A stretch of 42,553 nucleotides of DNA from Oscillospiraceae bacterium (GTDB lineage: Bacteria; Bacillota; Clostridia; Oscillospirales; Oscillospiraceae), in the NCBI GenBank assembly GCA_017541995.1, contig JAFXYD010000114.1, positions 1 to 42,553 on the forward strand, written 5' to 3'. Positions 15,510 to 42,356 of this stretch are shown piece by piece. How positions within the stretch are numbered: position 1 is the stretch's first letter; each line of letters opens with the position of its first letter. The translations under genes were made by a program, and so were the position numbers. A model generated the notes under the pieces. It had not been told where the DNA came from, ran no database searches, and saw only the letters and a program-made list of their open reading frames with translations.

Positions 15510-15555
15510 GGACAAGGCGCGGGATCGAGCTTTCTCGATCCCGCGCCTTGTCCTT
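15508..15555. terminator. Long perfect hairpin between convergent genes
   Basis: A stem of about 21 bp (AAGGACAAGGCGCGGGATCGA and its complement) begins at the end of the MBL-fold gene. It can act on both strands. Confidence 0.65.
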
Positions 15556-21680: not shown

Positions 21681-24600
21681 TCAGATGTCGTCCCGGTCAA
21701 AGAAGCCCAGGGAATCCAGGGATTCGATGACCCGCAGCAGATAGTTTTCATCGGTGATGGGCCACTTGTAGCCCAGGCGGTAGAGGGCCTTGACGCTGAA
21801 GGAATTGTCGGTCTTGACGTAGCGGCGCAGGCGCTTGTCGCTGGAGGAATAGGTCAGCAGTCCCGATACCAGCATGCTGCGGCTCTCGTCCGCCGCCGCC
21901 TCGTTGAGTCTGGCCCGGAAGAGCTCGTCCCGGACGATGGCGATTTTGAAGCCGTAGCGGTTCATGGCCTCGATCACGTCGCCCATCTGGACCTCGTGGG
22001 CGTTGGCGCAGTGGAAGAGGGTGAAGCCGGAATCCGTCAGAGACAGGCGCATGATGCACTCGGCCACCTCGTCGATGGGCGAGAAGTCCACGGTCTGGTC
22101 GCAGCTGGACACGGGGAAGCAGCCCAGCACCCGGTAGGCCTTGAGGCTGCGGATAAAGCTGTTGGTGACGGAGTTGATCTGGAACTCGCCGTCGGACTGG
22201 CGGCCCATCAGGTTGCCCACCCGGATGATCTTGGCGTCCAGGCCGCTGTCGATGGCCTCCAGCACGGCCCGCTCCGCCATAAACTTGGAGTGGACGTACT
22301 TGTTGGAGATGTCCTGGCCGAAGTCCAGGGCGTCCTCCCCCAGGCGGAAGGCGGGGTCGATGGCGTTGTCCACGTCCTCCCCCGCCACGGAGAGGGTGGA
22401 GATCTGGATGAAGCGGGCCTGCTTGGCCCGGGAAAGGGCGAGGAGCTTCTTCACGCCCTCCACGTTGATGCGCTCGATGATGTCGTCCTTGGCGAAGTGC
22501 TTGACGCAGGCGGCGCAGTTGATGACGGTGTCGATGCGCTCCGCCGCCAGCAGGCGCTCCAGGCCGTCGGAGGTGATGTCCGCGTCGTAGACCTTCACCA
22601 GGCGGGTGATCTCCTCATCCAGGGGGGAGTCGAAGTAGTAGGCCATCATGGCCCGCAGGCGGGTGTTCTCGTCCAGCTCTCCGGCCCGGCACAGGGCCAC
22701 GGTGGGCACCTCCCGCTCCAGCAGCTTCTTGAAGACGTGGGCTCCCAAAAAGCCGGTGGCGCCCGTCAGCAGCACCCGGCCCAGGGGCCGGCGCTCGGCA
22801 ATCTCGTCCACGTACTCTGCCACGTTGCGGCGCAGGGCGTTTTCATGGATCTCCCGGGGGGCGGCCTGGGCCGGAGCCGGCGCCGCCGTCTCGGGCTCCG
22901 CCCCCAGATGCTTCGCCATTTCCTCGGCGGTGGGATAGTCAAAGACGTCCTTGTAGGCGATGGACAGGTTCATGGACAGGGCCAGCATGGCTACCTTGGA
23001 GGCGGACAGGGAGGTGCCGCCGCTCTCGAAGAAGTCCTCGTCCACGCCGATGTCCTTGTGGCCCAGGGCCTTGGCGTAGATGGCGGCGATTTTCCGCTCC
23101 ATCTCGTTTTTGGGCCGCTTCAGCTCCCGCTGGACGCTCTCGGTGACGGGCTCCGGCAGGGCCTTCTTGTCGATCTTGCCGTTTTTGTTCATGGGGATGG
23201 AGTCCAGCTGCATGTACACGGAGGGCACCATGTACTTGGCCAGGCTCTTGCTGATGTGGGCCTTCAGGGCGTTGGGATCCAGCTTCTCATTGGCGGTGAA
23301 GTAGGCGCAGAGGAACTGGCCCTCCCGCTGGGATTCCTTCACCAGCACCAGGCTTCGCATCATGCCAGGGTAGGTGTTCATGACGTTTTCGATCTCGTCC
23401 AGCTCGATGCGCAGGCCCCGGAGCTTCACCTGGTTGTCCATGCGGCCCATGAAGAGGATGCGTCCGTCCGGGCTCCAGCGGGACAGGTCGCCGCTGCGGT
23501 AGGCGGGCAGGCCCTCGAAGGAGATGTACTTCTCCCGGTTCATCTGCTCCAGCTTCACGTAGCCCCGGCCCACGTTGTCGCCGCAGAGGATCAGCTCCCC
23601 GGGCACGTAGGGGGGCAGCTCGTTGTTGAACTTGTCGAAGATGGCCAGCTTGGTATTGCCCACGGGGCCGCCGATGGTGATATGCTCGTCGGTGACGTTG
23701 TCCGCGGTGATGAAGATGGTGGTCTCGGTGGGGCCATAGCCGTTGATGATCCGGGCCCGGATGCCCAGATCCCGCATCCGCTTATACAGAGGCGCGGGCA
23801 GAGCCTCGCCCCCCAGAAGCAGGGATTTCATGCTCCGCAGGGCCGCCACGGCGTCGGGGAAGTCCAGCAGATTGTTCACGTAGGAGGGCGAGAAGAAGGA
23901 GGCCTCCACGTGGTTCTCCAGGATCAGCCGGGCCAGGAGATTGGGGTTGTGGATCTCCTCCTCCGTGGCGATGACCACGGTCTTGCCGGTATACAGCCCC
24001 GTGGTGTGCTCCATGACGGAGACGTCGAAGGTCAGAGCCGCGAAACTCAGCGTGACGCTGACGTCCTTCAGATGCAGATAATCATAGAGATTGTGGGGGT
24101 TCTCGGTGACGAAGTTCACCAGGGAGTGGTGCTCGATCATGACCCCCTTGGGCTTGCCGGTGGAGCCGGAGGTGTAGAGGCAGTAGGCCAGATTGTGGGG
24201 CTTGACGGCGGGGTCGGGGTTGCCGGTCTCATCGCTCTGGATCAGCTGCTCGATCACCATCACCTCCAGGCCGCAGGCCCGGAACAGCTCCGCCCGCTCC
24301 CGGGCCAGCTGGGCGGTGGTGAGCAGCAGCTTCGCCTCGGAGTTCTCGATGATGTAGCGCACCCGGTCGTCGGGGTAATCCGGGGCCAGCATCAAAAAGC
24401 CGCCGCCGGATTTCAGTATGCCCTCCCGTCCGGCGTAGGCCCAGACCACCCGGGGCACCATGAGGCCCACCATGTCGTCGGGCCGCACCCCAGCCCGCAG
24501 CAGGGCGTGGGCGATGCGGTTGGCGTGCTCGTTGAGCTCTCTGTAGCTCAGCCTTTCGCCCTGGGCGATGACGGCGATCCGGTCCGGGTGGCGCAAGACC

Positions 24601-27600
24601 TCCGCCTCGAAGATGCGGTTCACGGTGGTCTCCGGCACGGGGCCCTCCGTGGCGTTGAAGCCCCGGATGCGCTCCTTCACGGCGGCGGGGAGGATGCTGA
24701 CCTCCTTCACCAGGCGCTTGGTCATGAGGCTGCGGACGGCCTGCTCAAAGTACGCGGAGAAGGCCCGCATGAAGGCCTCGGAATAGAGGTCGCTGCGGTA
24801 CTCGAAGCGGAACTCCGCGACCCCCTTCTCCTCGAAGATGTAGAAGGAAATCGGGGCCTTGGTGTCGCTGAGATCCAGCGGAATCACCTGGGCAGGCTCG
24901 CCGCAGATGGCGTTGAAGCTGAAGCTCTCCCCCTGGTAGACGAACATCAGATCCATGGGGATCTCGCAGGCCCGGGCAATCTCTCCGAAGGAGTAGATAT
25001 CGTGGCTCATGCTGTCCATGAGCTGACGGCCCACGGCGGCGATGAGCTCCTGCACCGGCTGCTCCCCATCCAGCTGGAGGCAGACCGGCAGGGTCTTCAC
25101 CAGCATGGTGACGGCCCGGGACAGGCGGGAGTCGTTTCTGCCGTTGTAGATGGTGGTGTAGAGGGCCTCGTTTTTGAAGCTGTACTTGCTCACCAGCAGG
25201 GCGAAGGCGGTGTTGAAGAAGGCGTTGACGGTGAAGCGCTTTTCCTGGCAGAAGGCCTTGACCGCCGCCATGTCCAGCTCGGATTTCAGGCTCAGAACGC
25301 CGGTGGCGGGGGCCCGGCCCCGAAGGTCCTTGGGGGGCAGGAAGTCGTGCTCCGCCCCGTCCAGGAGATTGTGGTAGTAGGCCTTGGCCTGCTCGTATCG
25401 CGCGCTCTGCCGGGCCTTCTTTTCCTCCAGGGCGGCCTCAAAGCCGGTGTAGCGCTCCGGCTCCAGGGCGGCGCCGGCGTAGGCGCTGTTGATGTCCTCG
25501 ATGAGCACCGCCTCGCTGGTGCCGTCGCAGAGGATGTGGTGCAGCTCCAGGAAGAGGTAGTTGGCCTCCGGGGTCTTGTAGATCCGCATCCGGTAGAGCG
25601 GGCTGTTGAACAGCTCGAAGGGGGTCACCAGGGGCTCCGGCAGGCGGTCTGTCTCGATGAGCTCCGCCACGGGATGCTTGGGATCGTCCCGGCAGACCCG
25701 GATCTCCCCGTCCTCCTGGACAAAGAGCTGCATTTTCAGATAGGGATGGGCCTGGATGGTCTGCTCCAGCGCCGCCTTCAGCCGGGGCAGCTCCACCTTC
25801 GGGGACAGCTTGAAGAGATAGGGAATGTTATAGACGGTGGAGCCGGGCTTGGCGATGCACTCCACCAGAATGCCGTTCTGGGTCTCGGTGAGGGGGTAAT
25901 CGGAGAGGATCTCGTACTCCTGGGCGGCCTCGCTGCTCTGGACAAAGCGCTCCAGGGCCTCCACGCTGCTGTTGGCCTTCAGATCCCCGATGGTGAAGGG
26001 GATGCCGAATTCCTTTGCCAGCAGGACGTTCAGCTTGATGGCGCCGATGGAGCTCAGGCCCGCGTAGAACAGATCCTGGTTGACTCCGAATTCCCGGGAG
26101 CCGATGACCCGGGCCGCGCAGTCGAAGATCCGACGCTGGGTCTCATTTTTGGGCGGCACCAGCCGCTCCGCCTTCCTCTGGGGCACTGGCAGGGCCCGCT
26201 TGTTCACCTTCTGGTTCTGGTTCAGAGGAATGGCGTCGATCTGCATGGTGACGGCGGGGACCATGTAGGGGGGCTTGTTTTGCAGGATAAAGGCGTTGAG
26301 GGCATCCACGTCCACATTCTGATCCGAGACCACGTAGGCGGCGATGAACTTGCCGCCTCCCTCCTGGTCGAAGGCCTGGACGGTGGCGTCCTTGACGCCC
26401 TGGAATTTCCGAATGACCCCCTCCACCTCGCTGAGCTCGATGCGGAAGCCCCGGATCTTCACCTGGCCGTCGCTGCGGCCGATGAAGTCCACCACCCCGC
26501 CGGGAAGCATCCGGACCACATCGCCGGTGCGGTAGACCCGGCGGTAACGCTCATCCGCGTCAAAGGGATTGTCCAGGAAGGCCCGGGCGCTCTGCTCCGG
26601 GCGATTGAGATAGCCCCGGCCCACCTGGGGGCCTGCGCAGAGCAGCTCGCCCGGCACGCCCAGGGGAACCCGGCGCAGCTGCTCATCCACCACGTACTGC
26701 CGCAGATTGGGCAGGGCGGGGCCGATGGGAATCCGCTCATAGAGCCGGTCCACGGGGTAGTGGTTCACAAACACGGTACACTCCGTGGGGCCGTAGGCGT
26801 TATACAGGCCGTAGGTTTTGGGGGGCTCCACAGGCACCAGCCGCTCGCCGCCCACGGTGAGGTACTTGGGGTACTCCGCCTCCGGGAAGAGCTCCGCGTA
26901 CTGGCGGCCCACCTGGGTGGTCATGAAGCTGTGGGTGATTTTGTGGGTCTGGAAATAGTCCCGGATGGCCAGCATGTCCAGGCGGATCTCCTCCCGGATG
27001 ACGTGCAAAGCGGCGCCGGCGCTCAGAGTGGGCCAGGTGTCCATCATGCTGGCGTCGAAGCCGAAGCTGGCGTAGGCCGCCGCCCGGCTCTCCGGGCTCA
27101 GCCGGTAGTAGTCCCGGAACCAGCCGCAGAAGGCGGCCAGATTCCCCCGCTCCAGGATGACCCCCTTGGGGACGCCGGTGGAGCCGGAGGTGTAGAGCAG
27201 GATGAAGCGCTGGGCGGGATCGTAGTCCTGCTCAGGGGCCCGGGCCGGGGGCAGGGTTGGGATTTCGTCGGTATAGAGCACGGGGCCGGTATAGCCGGGC
27301 ACCCGATCCATGAGGCTCCGCTCCGCAATGAGGTATTTGGCCTCGGCGTCCCGGATCATGAATTCCAGCCGCTCCGGGGGATAGCTGGGGTCCAGGGGCT
27401 GGTAGCCCGCCCCGCATTTCAGCACGCCCAGAGGGGCGGCCGCCATATAGACCCCCCGGGGGATCAGAATGGACACCACGTCCTCCCGGCCCACGCCCTT
27501 TCCGGCCAGGAAGGCCGCCAGGGCGTCGCTGAGCCGATCCAGCTCCCCATAGCTGAGGCGGGTATCTCCGCAGACCACGGCCTCGTGCTCGGGCTGCTCC

Positions 27601-28916
27601 GCCGCCCGCTGCCGGAACAGGGTGACCACGTCGCCGCAGTCCAGCGCTTTCTCCCTGCGGTTGGCGGCCTCCAGCCGCTCCAGCTGGGCCGGGGCCAGCA
27701 GATCCACGTCGGCAAGGCGTTCCACCCGGGTCAGCTCCAGCAGGATCTTCTCAAAGCTCTCGTGCATGGCCTGCACCACCTCGTCGTGATACCGGTCCAT
27801 GGGGTACACCGCCCGCAGGGTGACGACGCCCTCGGCCCGCCACACGGTGTATTCAAATTCCTCCTTGGCGTCCGGAGCGGCATAATACACCGGGGTGGTC
27901 TCGCCGCCGCAGAAGGAAATCCGGGGCAGCATATCCCCCTGATAGGAAAACAGGACCTTGGGCCGCAGCTCCGTCTCGGCGCAGAAGTCCGCGAAGGAAT
28001 AGAGTCCGTGTTTTCGATTCAGATCAATCTGTCGATCCAGCTCCCGGAGCAGCTCCGCGGGGCTTTTATCGTCGGTAAGATCCGCCAGAACCGGGTAGGT
28101 TTTTACAAACATACCCACGGTATCTCTCAGGCGCTGATCTCTGCCGTGGTGCACTGTGGAATACACCACGGTCTTGCTGTTGGTATGCCTGGAGAGCAGG
28201 ATTGCGAAGGCGGCGTTGAACAGGGTGCTGAGCTTCACCCCCTGCTGTCGGGCGAAGTCCTTCAGCGCCTGGGCGCTCATCGCCTTGATGGGGTAATCCA
28301 GCACCTTGGCCTCGTGAGGCCGCGCGTTGGCGTCCTCGTAGAGCTGGGTGGCGGTCTCCACCCCCTCGAAGCGCTTCAGATAGTAGTCCCGGGCCTCGGC
28401 ATAGGCAGCCGAGGCCAGCCGCTCCCGCTCCTCCAGGGCAAAATCGTTGGCGCTGAAGCGCTCCGGCTCCACGGGCAGGCCGTTGTAGGCCTCGTCGATC
28501 TGCCGGGTCAGAATGCCGAAGGAGAGGCCGTCAAAGATGACGTGGTGGACGTCGAGGAAGAGCAGCTTTTCCGCCGGGGTCACGATGACGGCAAAGCGGC
28601 AGAGCAGATCCCGCTCCAGGTCGAAGGGCTTCACATAGTCCCGAAGCTCAAAGCGCTCCGCCCAGAGCACCGGGATCTCCGGGCCCTCGGCTTCCCGGCG
28701 CAGATACTTGCAGACCTCGCCGTTCTCATCCTGGGTGAAGCCGGTTCGCAGAACGGGGTGGGCGGCGAGCACCTGGGCGATGGCCGCCTTCAGCCGGTTC
28801 AGATCCACGCCCTCCGGCAGCCGGATCGTGAACGGGTTATTGTAGGCGGTGTTCCGGGCGGTCATTTGCTCCACGTAGACGCCGTATTCCGTTTTGGAAA
28901 GTGGATAGCGATTCAT
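21681..28916 (-). CDS. Dimodular NRPS with terminal thioester reductase (C-A-T-C-A-T-R)
   Basis: About 2411 residues. Module 1: condensation domain with HHVIFDG (near 125), adenylation domain with YTSGSTGVPKG (near 574) and NAYGPTE (near 700), carrier GLSSI (near 957). Module 2: condensation HHILCDG (near 1130), adenylation YTSGSTGKPKG (near 1586) and NGYGPTE, carrier GGTSLSA (near 1970). A reductase follows, with GATGFLG (near 2056) for NADPH and a YVHSK (YxxxK) catalytic pair. Reductive release gives a peptide aldehyde or alcohol. A leading C domain is the usual sign of N-acylation by a fatty acyl starter. Hand-read binding-pocket residues are DAMFTGAVF(K) and DVMFLGGIF(K), suggesting hydrophobic substrates (low confidence). 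The ATG at 28916 is preferred over 28922 because GGAGG lies 7 nt upstream. Confidence 0.93.
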   Translation of the reverse strand: MNRYPLSKTEYGVYVEQMTARNTAYNNPFTIRLPEGVDLNRLKAAIAQVLAAHPVLRTGFTQDENGEVCKYLRREAEGPEIPVLWAERFELRDYVKPFDLERDLLCRFAVIVTPAEKLLFLDVHHVIFDGLSFGILTRQIDEAYNGLPVEPERFSANDFALEERERLASAAYAEARDYYLKRFEGVETATQLYEDANARPHEAKVLDYPIKAMSAQALKDFARQQGVKLSTLFNAAFAILLSRHTNSKTVVYSTVHHGRDQRLRDTVGMFVKTYPVLADLTDDKSPAELLRELDRQIDLNRKHGLYSFADFCAETELRPKVLFSYQGDMLPRISFCGGETTPVYYAAPDAKEEFEYTVWRAEGVVTLRAVYPMDRYHDEVVQAMHESFEKILLELTRVERLADVDLLAPAQLERLEAANRREKALDCGDVVTLFRQRAAEQPEHEAVVCGDTRLSYGELDRLSDALAAFLAGKGVGREDVVSILIPRGVYMAAAPLGVLKCGAGYQPLDPSYPPERLEFMIRDAEAKYLIAERSLMDRVPGYTGPVLYTDEIPTLPPARAPEQDYDPAQRFILLYTSGSTGVPKGVILERGNLAAFCGWFRDYYRLSPESRAAAYASFGFDASMMDTWPTLSAGAALHVIREEIRLDMLAIRDYFQTHKITHSFMTTQVGRQYAELFPEAEYPKYLTVGGERLVPVEPPKTYGLYNAYGPTECTVFVNHYPVDRLYERIPIGPALPNLRQYVVDEQLRRVPLGVPGELLCAGPQVGRGYLNRPEQSARAFLDNPFDADERYRRVYRTGDVVRMLPGGVVDFIGRSDGQVKIRGFRIELSEVEGVIRKFQGVKDATVQAFDQEGGGKFIAAYVVSDQNVDVDALNAFILQNKPPYMVPAVTMQIDAIPLNQNQKVNKRALPVPQRKAERLVPPKNETQRRIFDCAARVIGSREFGVNQDLFYAGLSSIGAIKLNVLLAKEFGIPFTIGDLKANSSVEALERFVQSSEAAQEYEILSDYPLTETQNGILVECIAKPGSTVYNIPYLFKLSPKVELPRLKAALEQTIQAHPYLKMQLFVQEDGEIRVCRDDPKHPVAELIETDRLPEPLVTPFELFNSPLYRMRIYKTPEANYLFLELHHILCDGTSEAVLIEDINSAYAGAALEPERYTGFEAALEEKKARQSARYEQAKAYYHNLLDGAEHDFLPPKDLRGRAPATGVLSLKSELDMAAVKAFCQEKRFTVNAFFNTAFALLVSKYSFKNEALYTTIYNGRNDSRLSRAVTMLVKTLPVCLQLDGEQPVQELIAAVGRQLMDSMSHDIYSFGEIARACEIPMDLMFVYQGESFSFNAICGEPAQVIPLDLSDTKAPISFYIFEEKGVAEFRFEYRSDLYSEAFMRAFSAYFEQAVRSLMTKRLVKEVSILPAAVKERIRGFNATEGPVPETTVNRIFEAEVLRHPDRIAVIAQGERLSYRELNEHANRIAHALLRAGVRPDDMVGLMVPRVVWAYAGREGILKSGGGFLMLAPDYPDDRVRYIIENSEAKLLLTTAQLARERAELFRACGLEVMVIEQLIQSDETGNPDPAVKPHNLAYCLYTSGSTGKPKGVMIEHHSLVNFVTENPHNLYDYLHLKDVSVTLSFAALTFDVSVMEHTTGLYTGKTVVIATEEEIHNPNLLARLILENHVEASFFSPSYVNNLLDFPDAVAALRSMKSLLLGGEALPAPLYKRMRDLGIRARIINGYGPTETTIFITADNVTDEHITIGGPVGNTKLAIFDKFNNELPPYVPGELILCGDNVGRGYVKLEQMNREKYISFEGLPAYRSGDLSRWSPDGRILFMGRMDNQVKLRGLRIELDEIENVMNTYPGMMRSLVLVKESQREGQFLCAYFTANEKLDPNALKAHISKSLAKYMVPSVYMQLDSIPMNKNGKIDKKALPEPVTESVQRELKRPKNEMERKIAAIYAKALGHKDIGVDEDFFESGGTSLSASKVAMLALSMNLSIAYKDVFDYPTAEEMAKHLGAEPETAAPAPAQAAPREIHENALRRNVAEYVDEIAERRPLGRVLLTGATGFLGAHVFKKLLEREVPTVALCRAGELDENTRLRAMMAYYFDSPLDEEITRLVKVYDADITSDGLERLLAAERIDTVINCAACVKHFAKDDIIERINVEGVKKLLALSRAKQARFIQISTLSVAGEDVDNAIDPAFRLGEDALDFGQDISNKYVHSKFMAERAVLEAIDSGLDAKIIRVGNLMGRQSDGEFQINSVTNSFIRSLKAYRVLGCFPVSSCDQTVDFSPIDEVAECIMRLSLTDSGFTLFHCANAHEVQMGDVIEAMNRYGFKIAIVRDELFRARLNEAAADESRSMLVSGLLTYSSSDKRLRRYVKTDNSFSVKALYRLGYKWPITDENYLLRVIESLDSLGFFDRDDI

Positions 28917-28932
28917 AGACATCCCTCCAGAT

Positions 28933-29523
28933 TCAGATTGTTTTGATAATAGCGGGGTCCAGCCCGCTGAGCTTCTCGTCCGCGCACAGGCTCAGGGCAA
29001 AGCCCTCGAAAATCGCGCTCCGGATGGACAGGCCCGGGGGCAGCTCCTCCTCCAGAGCGGGTATTTGCTTCGGGTCGGTATAGCCCCCCAAGGCCTTATA
29101 TAGGGCTTCCTTCCGGGTCCAGAGAATGTGAAAGCGCTTCATCGGCTCCTCCCGGATCCAGGCAAGCTCCGCCGGACCCAGAGCCGCCGGGGCGGCGCTC
29201 AGATTGTCGGGGTCCAGGCGCTCCAGGTCGACTCCGACCCGGCGCCCCTCCCCCACCGCCAGCAGGCAGCGGCCCCCGCTGTGGGACAGGCTGAAGACGG
29301 GGCCCTGCTCCAGATACGGCCTGCCCGCCGGGGTACAGCCCAGGCTCGATTCCCGCTCCACCCCCAGGGCCCGATGCAGCAGGACCCCGGAGCCGATGAC
29401 GCTGCGGCGGTCCTCCTCCCGCCGCATCCGGCAGGCCCGGGCATAGCGGGCGGGAAAGCGCCAGCGAACCAGCTCCAGGTCCGCCTGGGTGAGCGTATTG
29501 GAATCCAGCATATATAAGCGCAC
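28933..29523 (-). CDS. Sfp-type 4'-phosphopantetheinyl transferase
   Basis: About 196 residues. It carries GRPYL, then FSLSHSGG, then VGVDLE with the metal-binding Asp/Glu, and the distal WTRKEALYKALG, the standard motif order of Sfp-type enzymes that convert apo-carrier proteins to holo form using CoA. It should activate the two carrier domains of the NRPS, whose start lies 16 bp downstream. A GTG start at 29523 is chosen (VRLYMLDS) because AAGGGGAGGGGG lies just upstream and because the longer frame to 29565 would begin almost at the predicted transcription start. It is the first gene of the NRPS operon. Confidence 0.9.
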   Translation of the reverse strand: MRLYMLDSNTLTQADLELVRWRFPARYARACRMRREEDRRSVIGSGVLLHRALGVERESSLGCTPAGRPYLEQGPVFSLSHSGGRCLLAVGEGRRVGVDLERLDPDNLSAAPAALGPAELAWIREEPMKRFHILWTRKEALYKALGGYTDPKQIPALEEELPPGLSIRSAIFEGFALSLCADEKLSGLDPAIIKTI

Positions 29524-29573
29524 AGCCGCGCCCCCTCCCCTTCCCCGCAGAACCTGCAGGCACATTTTGGAAT

Positions 29574-31763: not shown

Positions 31764-32987
31764 TCAAGTCCCGGCGGCGCGCTCTGCCTCCGCCTTCTGA
31801 TGGGCGTAATACTCGTGAACCAGGCTGCGGTAGCCCAGGTTTTTCAATTCTCCGTAGCGGACCCGATAGCGGCCCTTCGTGCGCGTTCCGCTGATGAGCA
31901 CCCGGAGGCAGTCCTGGGCGTAGCGGTCGATGACGCCCAGGGAGTCCGCGGTGTTGATGACGGAGAAAAACCAGCAGCTCCAGCTGAGCTCCCGGTCCTC
32001 GGGGCTCTCCAGCAGCTTCCGGTTGAAGACCCGGATAAAGGCCGCCGCGGCCTGGACGCCGCTGCGGCCGCTGCGGTCCCGCCAGCGGGCCAGGGCCCGG
32101 GTCTTGCGGCGCATCTTGGCCTTCAGCTTGTCCAGGGTGGCGGGGGCAATGTCCACCCGGTCCCCCTTGCAGAAAAAGCCCAGGAAGGTCCAGCCGCTCT
32201 CGGGGCTGAAGCGCGCTTCCTTTTTGGGATTGATTTGCAGGCCCTTCTCCGCCAGCGCGGCCCGGAGTCGGGCGGCATGGGCCTCCAGCTCCTCTTCGTC
32301 GGAGGCGAAGAGGATGATGTCGTCGGAATAGCGGGCGTAGATCACGCCTCGCCGATGGAATTCCGCGTCCAGCTCCGCCAGATAGAGATTGGCATAGAAG
32401 GCGGATTGGGGCGTCCCCGCCATGATGCCCTTCTGCTCCAGCAGGGGCTCCCCCTTTTCCAGCACGGCAGGCTCCCGCAACAGCCCCGCCAGGAAGGCGT
32501 AGAGGGCGGGGTCCGGGGCCAGGGTCTGCTCCAGCAGGGGCAAAAAGCGCTCCGGCGGCACGGAATTGAAGTAGTTGCTGATATCCAGCTTATAGGCGTA
32601 CATGCCCTCCAGCCCCGGCACGGATCGCAGGGCGCGGATGGCGTCCTTGGCCGTGCGGCCCGGGCGGAAGGACCAGAGCCCGGGGGCAAAGCCCTCGTCG
32701 CAGCTTCGCAGCAGCAGCCAGGTCAGCAGCTTGAAGACCGTATTCTCCGGCTCGGGGTAGATGTAGACCACTCGTTTTTTCTCGGCGTGGAGCTTGGAGA
32801 TCACCGCCCGCCGGGGCAGGGGCATGGCCTCTCCCCTGCGGATCGCTTCCCAGACCGGCAGATAGGCGCCCGCGTCGATGTAGGCCCGGAGCCGCTTTGC
32901 TTCTGCGGCCCCGCAGCACAGGCTGCATTTGTAGGCGTAGTAGGCTTCCCAGATTTCCGGCTGCGAGATGGCGTTCAGAAGGGACAT
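31764..32987 (-). CDS. Reverse transcriptase of an unassigned group
   Basis: A 407-residue RNA-directed DNA polymerase with no accessory domain fused. Landmarks: FRPGRTAKDAI (near 113), the first catalytic Asp in YKLDISNYFNSV (near 140), motif 4 AGTPQSAFYAN (near 195), and the catalytic YSDD in YARYSDDIILFA (near 222). A basic thumb-like region and a C-terminal tail RYGELKNLGYRSLVHEYY complete it. Motif 4 lacks the QG...SP pattern of group II and retron enzymes and the GxxxSQ of diversity-generating retroelements. The ATG at 32987 is chosen for GGAGG 9 nt upstream; the longer frame would cross the structured leader. It is followed 15 bp later by the phosphatase gene. Confidence 0.85.
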   Translation of the reverse strand: MSLLNAISQPEIWEAYYAYKCSLCCGAAEAKRLRAYIDAGAYLPVWEAIRRGEAMPLPRRAVISKLHAEKKRVVYIYPEPENTVFKLLTWLLLRSCDEGFAPGLWSFRPGRTAKDAIRALRSVPGLEGMYAYKLDISNYFNSVPPERFLPLLEQTLAPDPALYAFLAGLLREPAVLEKGEPLLEQKGIMAGTPQSAFYANLYLAELDAEFHRRGVIYARYSDDIILFASDEEELEAHAARLRAALAEKGLQINPKKEARFSPESGWTFLGFFCKGDRVDIAPATLDKLKAKMRRKTRALARWRDRSGRSGVQAAAAFIRVFNRKLLESPEDRELSWSCWFFSVINTADSLGVIDRYAQDCLRVLISGTRTKGRYRVRYGELKNLGYRSLVHEYYAHQKAEAERAAGT

Positions 32988-33013
32988 GGGGGCGTCCTCC
33001 GTCAGAGCATCAT

Positions 33014-33158
33014 AAAAAACAGGAAGAGAAAGCATTAAAGCCCGAATAATTTCGGGAAGTACCAGACCGTACACGGGCAGGCTGCCTGCGAAGCCGCAAA
33101 AAGCCCGTGCCGGGTCCGCCGCAGGCGCAGGTTTCCCAGCGTTCTCTTCCTGTTTTTT
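33014..33158 (-). ncRNA. Candidate structured RNA bounded by inverted repeats, upstream of the reverse transcriptase
   Basis: A perfect 17-bp inverted repeat (AAAAAACAGGAAGAGAA at 33014-33030 and its complement at 33142-33158) encloses 111 bp. Inside are a perfect 6-bp hairpin at 33041-33056 (CCCGAA/TTCGGG) and a 7-bp stem 33072-33078/33103-33109 (CACGGGC/GCCCGTG) enclosing an inner TGCG/CGCA hairpin, with an alternative GCAGG/CCTGC pairing. It ends 26 bp before the reverse transcriptase ATG and is read on its strand. The layout recalls the a1/a2-bounded RNA of retrons, but no typical long msd stem is seen. A small mobile element or a terminator pair are alternatives. Confidence 0.45.
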
Positions 33159-33215
33159 TCAGTTTTTGGGGCGAGCTCTCGGCCCGCGGGGTCTTGGGCG
33201 AATCCAATACCGGTA

Positions 33216-33725
33216 TCAGGCGCCCAGAGCCTCCCGGATCCGGCGCACCACGTAGGAGCGGGCGTTCCACCAGCCCTCCTTGTCGTAGTAGAAGCGCAGA
33301 TAGGGCGTGCGGCTGCGGGCGCAGTCCCGGCGGAGCTGCTGCAGATCCCCGCGGCGGGACATGATCTCCACCACCAGCACCACCCTTGCGCCTTCATAGA
33401 AGGTGTAAACCGTGGTCTTGTCGGAGCGGGGGTTGGCGCTGCGGGTCACCCGGTAGGCGGCAAAGTCCCGGTTGAAAATGTCCTGGAAGTATTCCAGATA
33501 GCTGCCGGGGAAGTTGTACTGATTGGGCTCGTTGGGCAATTTGACGCCCCAGGAGCGGCCGATGGGGGTCTCCTCGGCATAGGCGGAAGCCTCGGGCTGC
33601 GCCGGCCAGTTGACCGGGCGGGCAGGCTGGACGGGGTCCGGCTTCTCCTCTTTGCCCTGCAGCAGCTCCACCACGTCGGAAAGGCTGGGCTTTTTGCCCT
33701 TCAGAAGCTTGGATAACAGACTCAT
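33216..33725 (-). CDS. Uncharacterised protein upstream of the reverse transcriptase
   Basis: A 169-residue soluble protein with a Lys-rich N-terminus (LLKGKKPSLSDVVELLQ), a Pro-rich linker (about 30-50) and a compact C-terminal domain containing YTFYEGARVVLVVEIMSRR, then RRDCARSRTPYLRFYYD and a final WWNARSYVVRRI helix. The alternating strands with a central VVE resemble a PD-(D/E)XK-like fold, but the catalytic Asp and Lys are not clear; I treat this only as a hint. AAGGAGG lies 8 nt before the ATG. It is 228 bp upstream of the reverse transcriptase start on the same strand, with the structured RNA candidate between them. Confidence 0.6.
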   Translation of the reverse strand: MSLLSKLLKGKKPSLSDVVELLQGKEEKPDPVQPARPVNWPAQPEASAYAEETPIGRSWGVKLPNEPNQYNFPGSYLEYFQDIFNRDFAAYRVTRSANPRSDKTTVYTFYEGARVVLVVEIMSRRGDLQQLRRDCARSRTPYLRFYYDKEGWWNARSYVVRRIREALGA

Positions 33726-33803
33726 GGCGGGTACCTCCTTGTATGGTCGGATTCAGGTCATGGGATCTATCTGTTTCGATCTTATCAGAAAAGCGCCGCC
33801 GTG

Positions 33804-34850
33804 TCAACCGTTATTCGCGGCATTCTCCTGACTTTCCCGCAAAGCGGAGTTGGCGGAACGGATGTGGGCCGCGATGCTGTCGTCTCCAAAGTCCACGATG
33901 ATCCAGCCCCGGAGCTCCGACGGGTCCAGCTCCAGCAAGCGCTGATTCAGCTCCTTGGCGTACTGCCAGGGATGCCCGTATTTCGCGGTGCCCGCGGTGC
34001 TGAGAAAGTGGAGGCAGAGGGCCGACGGGGAAACGGCGCTCTCCCGCAGGCCCTTCTGAAAGGCCTCCCATTTCTCCTCCGTGGCGTAATGGAAGCGGTC
34101 CTGCACCCAGAGCTCGCAGTCGTTGAAGTCCACCCGCTCCAGGTGCTCGCCGCTTTCCTGGTCGTTGTCCTGCTCGGGCCAGACGCAGCTGATCCCCATG
34201 CAGTCCGCCCGGGGAGGCAGGCTGCGGTCCGCGTAGCGCCGCAGCAGCACCAGCTTGCCCCGGGCCTCCGCCAGGGTGGGAAGCGTGTTTCCCGTGTACC
34301 AGAAGCGCGCGTCCTTTTGGATGACGGCCTCCAGCGCCCGGGCGAACTCCGCCGCCGTCTCATCGCCGTGCTCCTGCTTCACGTTGAATACCACCGTCTC
34401 CGAAGGATTGCTCAGAAGGAAGGCGTAGCACTGGGCCAGCACCTCCTCCAGATACAGGGGCTCGTCCCAGGGCATGGGGCCCACCCGGCAGGTGGTGAAG
34501 CTGTGCATCAGCTTCAGGCGCTCCCCCTCCAGACCCAGGCGGATGTCCAGATAGCGATAACCCGCGTCCAGCTGCTCCCGGATGCCGAGATCCTGGCAGC
34601 GGGTCAGAAAGGCGATCTGGCAGTATTGGGTGGCGCTGTTGTGGGTGCCGGGCAGCACGATCTCATTGAGCCGCAGGCTGTCGTCGAGATAGGCCATCCA
34701 GGACGAGGCCTCCGCCCCGGGGGCGCTGGCCACCGTCTCGGTGAAGGGGATGATGAAAAAGGCAGCGGCTGTCAGCAGCACCAACACCAGAAAGGCGCAT
34801 ACCACCCGCAGCAGCACCCGCAAGGACTTCCGTTTTTTCTTCTCCGGCAT
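33804..34850 (-). CDS. PI-PLC-like phosphodiesterase, membrane-anchored
   Basis: A 348-residue protein with a basic N-terminus and one membrane segment (about residues 10-33), then a phosphatidylinositol-specific phospholipase C X-domain. The two catalytic histidines are visible in GTHNSAT (near 69-75) and LMHSF (near 114-118), along with YLDIRLG between them. Bacterial members cleave phosphatidylinositol or GPI-type lipids outside the cell without calcium. The anchor places the domain on the outer face. AAAGGAG precedes the ATG. It stands alone, divergent from guanine deaminase. The true substrate, perhaps host phosphoinositides, is inference from family. Confidence 0.85.
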   Translation of the reverse strand: MPEKKKRKSLRVLLRVVCAFLVLVLLTAAAFFIIPFTETVASAPGAEASSWMAYLDDSLRLNEIVLPGTHNSATQYCQIAFLTRCQDLGIREQLDAGYRYLDIRLGLEGERLKLMHSFTTCRVGPMPWDEPLYLEEVLAQCYAFLLSNPSETVVFNVKQEHGDETAAEFARALEAVIQKDARFWYTGNTLPTLAEARGKLVLLRRYADRSLPPRADCMGISCVWPEQDNDQESGEHLERVDFNDCELWVQDRFHYATEEKWEAFQKGLRESAVSPSALCLHFLSTAGTAKYGHPWQYAKELNQRLLELDPSELRGWIIVDFGDDSIAAHIRSANSALRESQENAANNG

Positions 34851-42255: not shown

Positions 42256-42264
42256 AGCTTCCGA

Positions 42265-42303
42265 CGCAAAAGGAGGAAGCCTTGCGGCTTCCTCCTTTCG
42301 CGT
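42265..42303 (+). terminator. Strong hairpin after the tRNA-like region
   Basis: A near-perfect 17-bp stem (CGCAAAAGGAGGAAGCC against GGCTTCCTCCTTTCGCG, loop TTGC) follows; seven T residues come about 10 nt later. Confidence 0.6.
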
Positions 42304-42356
42304 TGGGGTTATTTTTTTGTCTCAGTTTCCGCAGACGGCTCCGGCGGCGTCCCATT

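Follow-up and report, generated by a model that had tools for sequence, protein, structure and literature searches.

According to the authors of the DRT10 study, all of the experimentally characterised UG reverse transcriptases (RTs) have been implicated in phage defence; they describe most UG RTs as enzymes whose template and product are unknown, and they raise the question whether telomerase-like repeat addition might be a common theme (PMC12632851). In the Class 2 DRTs studied so far the enzyme's own RNA is its template (PMC12632851, PMC13174585). DRT10 itself needs an A-B-A' arrangement located after a stable stem-loop, as well as a C-terminal serine or tyrosine primer (PMC12632851), and DRT9 has two C-terminal tyrosines, either of which could serve in the case of one phage (PMC12483538). 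UG26 RTs have been reported in cold-seep viruses (PMC10504277).

Here, we analyze a UG26 locus of an Oscillospiraceae bacterium; the window referred to below is the whole stretch of DNA that was analyzed, 42,553 nucleotides in length. On its minus strand a 169-aa gene (33725-33216) is followed by a 145-nt block (33158-33014) and then by a 407-aa RT (32987-31764). The coordinates bear out what the initial annotation had said of this block, namely that a perfect 17-bp inverted repeat (arms 33014-33030 and 33142-33158) encloses 111 bp upstream of the RT, and that the block ends 26 nt ahead of the RT start codon (32985-32987, minus strand). In a repeat search the arms grow to 20 nt at 95%. Folding the block's minus strand gives -66 kcal/mol, whereas dinucleotide-shuffled versions give -46.5 +/- 3.7 (z -5.3; 0 of 200). 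The features of the locus are the following.

31764..32987, minus strand: RT of the UG26 group, 407 aa, active site YSDD at 32319-32330 (PADLOC RT_UG26, 527 bits; Pfam RVT_1)
31806..31811, minus strand: two adjacent tyrosines, Y393 and Y394, candidate protein primer where the conserved part of the RT ends (conservation; priming by analogy with DRT9 and DRT10)
33014..33158, minus strand: partner RNA gene of about 145 nt, starting near 33158 and finishing at the U-tract 33014-33019 (Rfam match; covariance model R1)
33142..33158, minus strand: 5' strand of P1, the outer closing helix (two-sided variation in 14 of 14 counted pairs; 97.0% of cells paired)
33014..33030, minus strand: P1 3' strand, ending in an oligo-U run (covariation)
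33113..33118, minus strand: P2 5' strand, partner 33063-33068 (covariation; outermost pair unpaired in 36 of 91 sequences)
33063..33068, minus strand: P2 3' strand (covariation)
33103..33110, minus strand: P3 5' strand, partner 33071-33078 (covariation)
33071..33078, minus strand: P3 3' strand (covariation)
33080..33095, minus strand: P4 hairpin, 33092-33095 with 33080-33083 (4 of 4 pairs vary on both sides; 92.6% paired)
33120..33126, minus strand: pseudoknot 5' strand GCCUGCG (two-sided variation in 6 of 7 pairs; pairing in 99.8% of 625 cells)
33084..33090, minus strand: pseudoknot 3' strand CGCAGGC, within the P4 loop (same covariation as the 5' strand)
33041..33056, minus strand: P5 hairpin, immediately 5' of the template candidate (5 of 5 pairs vary on both sides; 99.3% paired)
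33029..33040, minus strand: template candidate in the P5-P1 junction, A-B = CUUUAAUG (33033-33040), A' = CUUU (33029-33032); putative function
33216..33725, minus strand: partner protein, 169 aa, RT-associated and COG2852-like (PADLOC RTasCOG2852, 172.7 bits)
33779..33807, minus strand: promoter-like site TTGACA-17-TAAGAT ahead of the partner gene (by consensus scan)

Elsewhere in the window, at 21681-29565, the translations alone suggest a large multidomain protein resembling a nonribosomal peptide synthetase of two modules that ends in a reductase; the gene after it resembles one for a 4'-phosphopantetheinyl transferase.

Both the block and the enzyme belong to families that have already been catalogued. 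RT-5 (Rfam RF03026) matches 33027-33130 of the minus strand over the whole of its model (1-104 of 104) at 97.7 bits, against a curated gathering score of 45.7. The covariance model R1, built from 69 sequences that include the window's own, matches 33011-33161 at 147.8 bits, and the ends of the gene were placed by the promoter-to-P1 spacing in relatives; two other R1 matches in the window, at 42258-42309 (23.5 bits) and 15510-15553 (15.9 bits), were taken as chance. The RT scores 527.2 bits with RT_UG26 (profile positions 1-397 of 398), the next PADLOC models being the generic RT (99.3 bits) and UG27 (94.1 bits); the ncRNA-using DRT classes UG17 (DRT10), Drt9, Drt2 and Drt3a are among its best-scoring UG profiles, and UG27 and UG4 score alike. 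A solved structure, 9ioa, labelled "RNA-dependent DNA polymerase" and which we take to be DRT9, gives 75.6 bits. The suggestion that the block is the RNA of an undescribed RT system thus stands as far as a dedicated RNA of the RT is concerned and fails on the word undescribed, since the core is Rfam's RT-5 and the enzyme is PADLOC's UG26. What we have is a real and well-supported structured RNA, with a core already in Rfam, that is here extended and tied to UG26 as what comparison indicates to be an obligate partner in trans. In the literature searched, which did not take in Weinberg 2017 or Mestre 2022, there was no function for RT-5 or UG26 and no closing helix, pseudoknot or template-like junction; relative to that literature, what is new is the helix that closes the RNA, its pseudoknot, the test of the gene pair and the predicted template. 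Weinberg 2017 is reportedly the original RT-motif paper and Mestre 2022 is said to be a survey of UG and Abi enzymes.

The comparison of relatives points to a conserved fold in which P1 encloses P2-P3-P4 and P5, together with a 7-bp pseudoknot. Alignment A2, built by MAFFT without structure, contains 69 of the 77 RNAs then known; the eight left out, L089 (a run of N), L091, L102, L040 and L101 (insertions or shifted arms) and L052, L086 and L090 (near-copies), are all present in the later alignment A6. In A2, 95.7% of the 3034 cells of the proposed fold pair and two-sided changes are seen in 35 of the 44 pairs, versus 18.5 +/- 2.0 for shuffles and at most 18 for slid structures. A6 comprises 95 RNAs, 92 of them distinct; the model to which they were aligned includes P1-P5 and not the pseudoknot, so the alignment is biased towards the former and not towards the latter. 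Two-sided changes occur there in all of the counted pairs of P1 (14/14), P5 (5/5) and P4 (4/4) and in 12 of the 14 of P2-P3, the weakest pairs being the outermost of P2 (unpaired in 36/91) and of P4 (which fails in 26/91 sequences). For the pseudoknot, 624 of the 625 cells pair, compared with no more than 44.7% in slid versions, and six of its seven pairs vary on both sides; a small CGC/GCG hairpin that RNAalifold proposes at a pseudoknot strand shows weaker covariation and was rejected. Both P1 and the pseudoknot are absent from the structure line of the RT-5 match, and because of the covariation around the RT-5 core we take the P1 arms as the closing helix of this known RNA family. The initial annotation had called for compensatory changes in the 17-bp arms, and these are strongly evident in every counted pair of P1; it would have taken homologous loci without the repeat as counting against it, and homologous loci in fact retain the repeat with compensatory changes. 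The local hairpins it saw inside the block are present, although the minimum-energy fold of the single sequence is not the conserved one. In L091, L102 and L040, insertions of tens of nucleotides are tolerated in the P3-P4 region, which therefore probably points away from the RT core.

The association of this RNA with the RT was examined in 115 genomes of family f67, the RNA being accepted at E<=1e-3 and the RT at E<=1e-60. Both were found in 79 genomes, the RNA alone in one and neither in 35, so that 114 of 115 were concordant; by this comparison the block is almost certainly a small RNA gene and an obligate partner of the UG26 RT. In 50 of the 79 paired genomes the two are adjacent (19-243 nt between matches), in 24 they are 1.2-9.5 kb apart and in five they are on different contigs; the separation in the 24 implies that the RNA acts in trans. 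The possibility of a MITE, which had been raised against the block, is opposed by the single RT-5 match in the window's own genome (assembly 78% complete, 122 contigs) and by one match per genome in 80 genomes. Nine of 95 loci have a TATAAT box of the RNA's own within the 30 nt that precede it (shuffles give a mean of 1.4 and a maximum of 7) and, as a raw count, such a box precedes the RNA in 30 of 45 distinct loci of a later set (35 of 50 rows); in separated loci it sits directly ahead of P1. In the genus with the most genomes, five of the eight loci examined have the RNA on one side of a block of opposite-strand genes and the RT on the other, and in L045 one gene lies between them. By eye, the L045 gene (2150-2640) is DinB-like. 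Opposite-strand genes intervene in the separated loci L176, L177 and L180-L182, where the RNA and RT are still kept together; those of L177 include GH43, LytTR and DUF7010, and in L181 the RT is beyond the sequenced stretch examined. All eight loci examined in a second genus share flanking gene families; in L174 the genes are TrkA- and TrkH-like on one side, and those on the other side have AcpS, AAA/IstB and DnaB_2 domains. A palindrome, CATCAG-N5-CTGATG, occurs about 20 nt upstream of the RNA in six of the eight loci examined in one genus (L168-L175) and slightly altered in the other two; it may be an operator, or a terminator of the preceding gene.

Within f67 the RNA is nearly a core gene (80 of 115 genomes, 50 of the 62 good ones), with one match in each and synteny within the genera checked. 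Counting its own genome in each case, RT-5 was found in 12 of the 394 genomes scanned for the order, in 15 of 391 for the class (one of them below the curated cut-off) and, in the phylum sample, 2 of 398, both in the class. True UG26 matches (E below 1e-150) amounted to 10 loci in 9 of 295 genomes, with the RNA at 10 of 10; the weak matches L023-L025 are considered to be other RTs because the PADLOC generic RT model scores higher and their loci have no RNA. A scan of named genomes gave at least 80 RT loci, and the 80 listed, those nearest to the window's RT, come mostly from uncultured Clostridia, many from ruminant gut samples, and include two from Ruminococcus flavefaciens. The RNA is present at 76 of them; L042, L063 and L087 have 150 nt or less of upstream sequence, and L092 has 5 kb upstream and no RNA. 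A conserved noncoding RNA encoded with the RT, one of the marks of the Class 2 DRTs, is thus found in these 76 of the best 80 loci, as in the 114 concordant genomes. Deep relatives of the RNA (G1150, G1151, G1154 and G1155; L184-L187) score 36.8-44.6 bits, under the RT-5 cut-off, in 4 of 80 genomes; they adjoin divergent UG26 RTs, with a rhodanese-like gene upstream in L186. On contig C10 of G076 there are two diverged UG26/RT-5 systems about 55 kb apart (L006 and L013/L125). L049 and L052, on two contigs of one metagenome-assembled genome, have RNAs and partner proteins that are alike, either by duplication or by an assembly artefact.

Sequence conservation of the RT stops at the two tyrosines. 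The position of Y393 is a tyrosine in 75 of 80 rows and that of Y394 in 79, and at least one is found in all 80 rows with residues there (74 YY, 4 FY, 1 CY and 1 YH); among 16 further divergent RTs, one (L134) has neither. By analogy with DRT9 and DRT10, we would give an even chance to these tyrosines being the primer.

The junction between P5 and P1 has the consensus XUUUAANGY, in which UUUAA (TTTAA in the DNA) is invariant in 69 of 69 RNAs, and the last two bases of A' lie inside P1. The idea that it could be a template arose from viewing the alignment in the light of DRT10, and for that reason a scan for excess identity was run over every eligible column pair, 709 in number, eligibility meaning a spacing of 3-40 columns and minor letters in eight sequences or more. 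Columns 178/186, eight apart in the unpaired junction, came first, with 40 of 69 identical where 23.1 were expected (z 5.1). The next three pairs, inside helices, have z 4.3-4.5, and relatedness therefore inflates this scale, shuffles alone understating it. By ordinary mutual information, corrected, the same columns rank 47 of 6786 (counted from 0), after mostly helix pairs and neighbours. The triplet XUU recurs downstream, a 3-nt A=A' repeat, in 53 of 81 RNAs, compared with 36.5 when shuffled (1 of 5000), and on an 80-tip RT tree in 52 versus 35.3 +/- 5.9 in tree simulations (9 of 2000); it is absent in 28 of the 81. This set consists of the 69 of A2 plus L040, L091, L102, L128, L129, L131, L133, L137, L012, L114, L115 and L116, and L129, without an RT in the tree, accounts for the missing tip; L122-L127, L130, L132, L134 and L135 were kept apart because they have no TTTAA anchor or were read by eye only. 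Read by eye, GUUUC occurs twice in all eight loci examined in one genus and, in the deep variants, CUGUU occurs twice in L134, GUUUU twice in L130 and GUUU twice in L132, with an AUUU repeat in L123 and L125; L122 and L126 have no repeat, L124 fails, and L127 and L135 are weak.

As regards the A-B-A' unit that DRT10 needs after its stem-loop, then, the repeat is seen in 53 of 81 sequences and the coupling is first of 709 with helix pairs close behind. Such coupling of identity is as expected for a telomerase- or DRT10-like A-B-A' template, yet it does not prove templating. Against a template is the invariance of the TTTAA core, unlike the poorly conserved template of DRT10; moreover, as A' overlaps P1 and P1 is pyrimidine-rich, short repeats arise easily. 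On balance, these alignments incline us, by a little, towards a short realigning template in the junction. A different candidate, the repeat GUAC-N6-GUAC, was rejected; its middle is within the covarying P2, and it is not the coupling signal found.

We are slightly in favor of viewing the locus as an uncharacterised DRT-like ribonucleoprotein that makes tandem-repeat DNA, predicted here to be (CATTAAAG)n. In such a mechanism the RT and RNA would assemble into a ribonucleoprotein, with P5 setting the 5' boundary of a short template located in the junction before P1. The RT would copy A-B (CUUUAAUG), the end of the cDNA would slip back to A' and be extended again, and repeated realignment would yield tandem-repeat single-stranded DNA, as in DRT10 and telomerase. 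The conserved C-terminal tyrosines would probably prime the synthesis. Either this DNA or the ribonucleoprotein, together with the COG2852-like partner where there is one, may serve as a signal or be toxic, perhaps as part of a response to stress or in defence.

That the RNA is instead a scaffold or regulator of an RT which makes untemplated or otherwise templated DNA seems to us rather unlikely, although there is something to be said for it: the partnership and the structure are supported by comparison whereas templating is only predicted, 28 of the 81 RNAs lack the 3-nt repeat, and the invariant TTTAA may be a protein-binding element. However, a coupling by identity, and not by complementarity, that tops 709 pairs is hard to explain by scaffolding, and the Class 2 DRTs studied so far template on their own RNA (PMC12632851, PMC13174585). 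It is very improbable that the RNA is a rolling-circle template for building a hidden open reading frame in the manner of DRT2; this is one of the related classes, and 23 of 69 inserts are stop-free on one strand or another when circularised (a raw count), but insert lengths are distributed evenly over the three frames (24, 23 and 22 of 69) and the invariant TTTAA itself holds a TAA.

The initial annotation had likened the layout to that of a retron, and complementary ends do bound the RNA beside the RT gene. As an explanation, an msr-msd transcript copied into multicopy DNA is nevertheless hardly credible: there is no match to an Rfam retron family, the retron RT model NF038233 gives 49.5 bits versus a cut-off of 235, the RT has no NAxxH and no VTG, the motifs that mark retron RTs, the conserved fold is without the long msd stem, and the RNA can sit kilobases away on its own promoter. 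The poorest account of all is a riboswitch, attenuator or terminator controlling the RT gene in cis. In the window the block does lie between the partner gene and the RT, and it does end in oligo-U; but in 24 of 79 genomes the RNA and RT are 1.2-9.5 kb apart, one recurring locus has four or five opposite-strand genes between them, L045 has its intervening gene, and the RNA has promoter boxes of its own. The separated pairs, the boxes and the L045 gene together exclude a leader or terminator as the sole role, which we consider effectively refuted.

Relatives of the partner protein are found in 74 of the best 80 named loci, and no profile match to it was obtained in several lineages that keep the RNA and RT. 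Its N-terminal stretch is amphipathic by eye and is followed by a variable linker and then by a domain that AlphaFold2 models with high pLDDT as helix-strand-strand-strand-helix-strand-helix, a predicted order that recalls the PD-(D/E)XK core. The COG2852/Vsr-like nuclease fold has a catalytic acidic motif. Residue E120 is invariant in 45 aligned sequences; because this glutamate is lost in five deep homologues and the usual first acidic residue (a D before E120) is not seen in the partner alignment, the protein may not cut DNA.

PADLOC files UG26 under DRT, and we would put phage defence as the main role at a little below an even chance. The 118 proteins flanking 20 loci gave only scattered generic matches (raw counts): at 1e-25 the PADLOC models found were mad3, in four proteins, and UvrD-helicase-type models, GajB and RTasHel, in one each; at 1e-15 the best 25 of 41 families were considered. 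PHROG matches, for the best 25 of 55 families, were scattered, with two transposases. At 1e-20 neither 72,556 plasmid records nor 50,697 phage records gave a match to the UG26/RT-5 pair; at 1e-4 all plasmid matches were below 60% identity, most of those among the 40 of 1071 records listed being annotated as group II intron RTs. Viral contigs gave one distant RT. A pair that is near-core, syntenic and single-copy is unusual for a defence system. An unlikely alternative, though one to be kept in mind, is a telomerase-like ribonucleoprotein outside phage defence, with a pseudoknotted template RNA making tandem-repeat DNA; since the pair is near-core, syntenic and single-copy in one lineage of gut bacteria, with its genes even separated, the DNA would, on that account, serve a cellular and not purely antiviral purpose. 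A near-core UG RT would challenge the view of all UG RTs as phage-defence genes.

In comparison with what has been described, then, an Rfam motif becomes a well-supported partner RNA of UG26 with a full predicted fold that includes a pseudoknot, and the template reading yields an exact predicted product of 8 nt. The window's RNA is a member of RT-5 (RF03026), to whose structure line P1 and the pseudoknot are additional. PADLOC's UG26 and RTasCOG2852 are both matched here (527 and 172.7 bits); that set lists proteins only, whereas the RNA is a more constant partner than the COG2852-like protein (74 of the best 80 loci). With DRT10 (UG17) the locus shares a folded RNA with a central stem and side hairpins encoded with the RT, a template (here a candidate) directly after a stable hairpin with an A-B-A' unit of 8-9 nt, and a conserved hydroxyl residue at the C-terminus (PMC12632851). 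It differs in that the RT is not UG17 (79.2 bits versus 527 for UG26) and that the SLATT gene of DRT10 is replaced by a COG2852-like partner, the neighbour here being RTasCOG2852 and the other three window proteins scanned giving no SLATT match; it also has a conserved template core and a covarying pseudoknot, and in the searches made it was found within one class only. DRT9 (UG28; PADLOC Drt9, 73 bits) has in common with it the two adjacent C-terminal tyrosines and a conserved template sequence, but DRT9 copies poly-U into poly-dA whereas the candidate here is a mixed unit of 8-9 nt (PMC12483538). From telomerase the system differs in that the RT profile meets solved telomerase RTs weakly (2.5e-6); the likeness to telomerase RNA is in the mode of working, that is, a short template, here a candidate, that has an alignment repeat and is bordered by a stem-loop or pseudoknot (PMC12632851).
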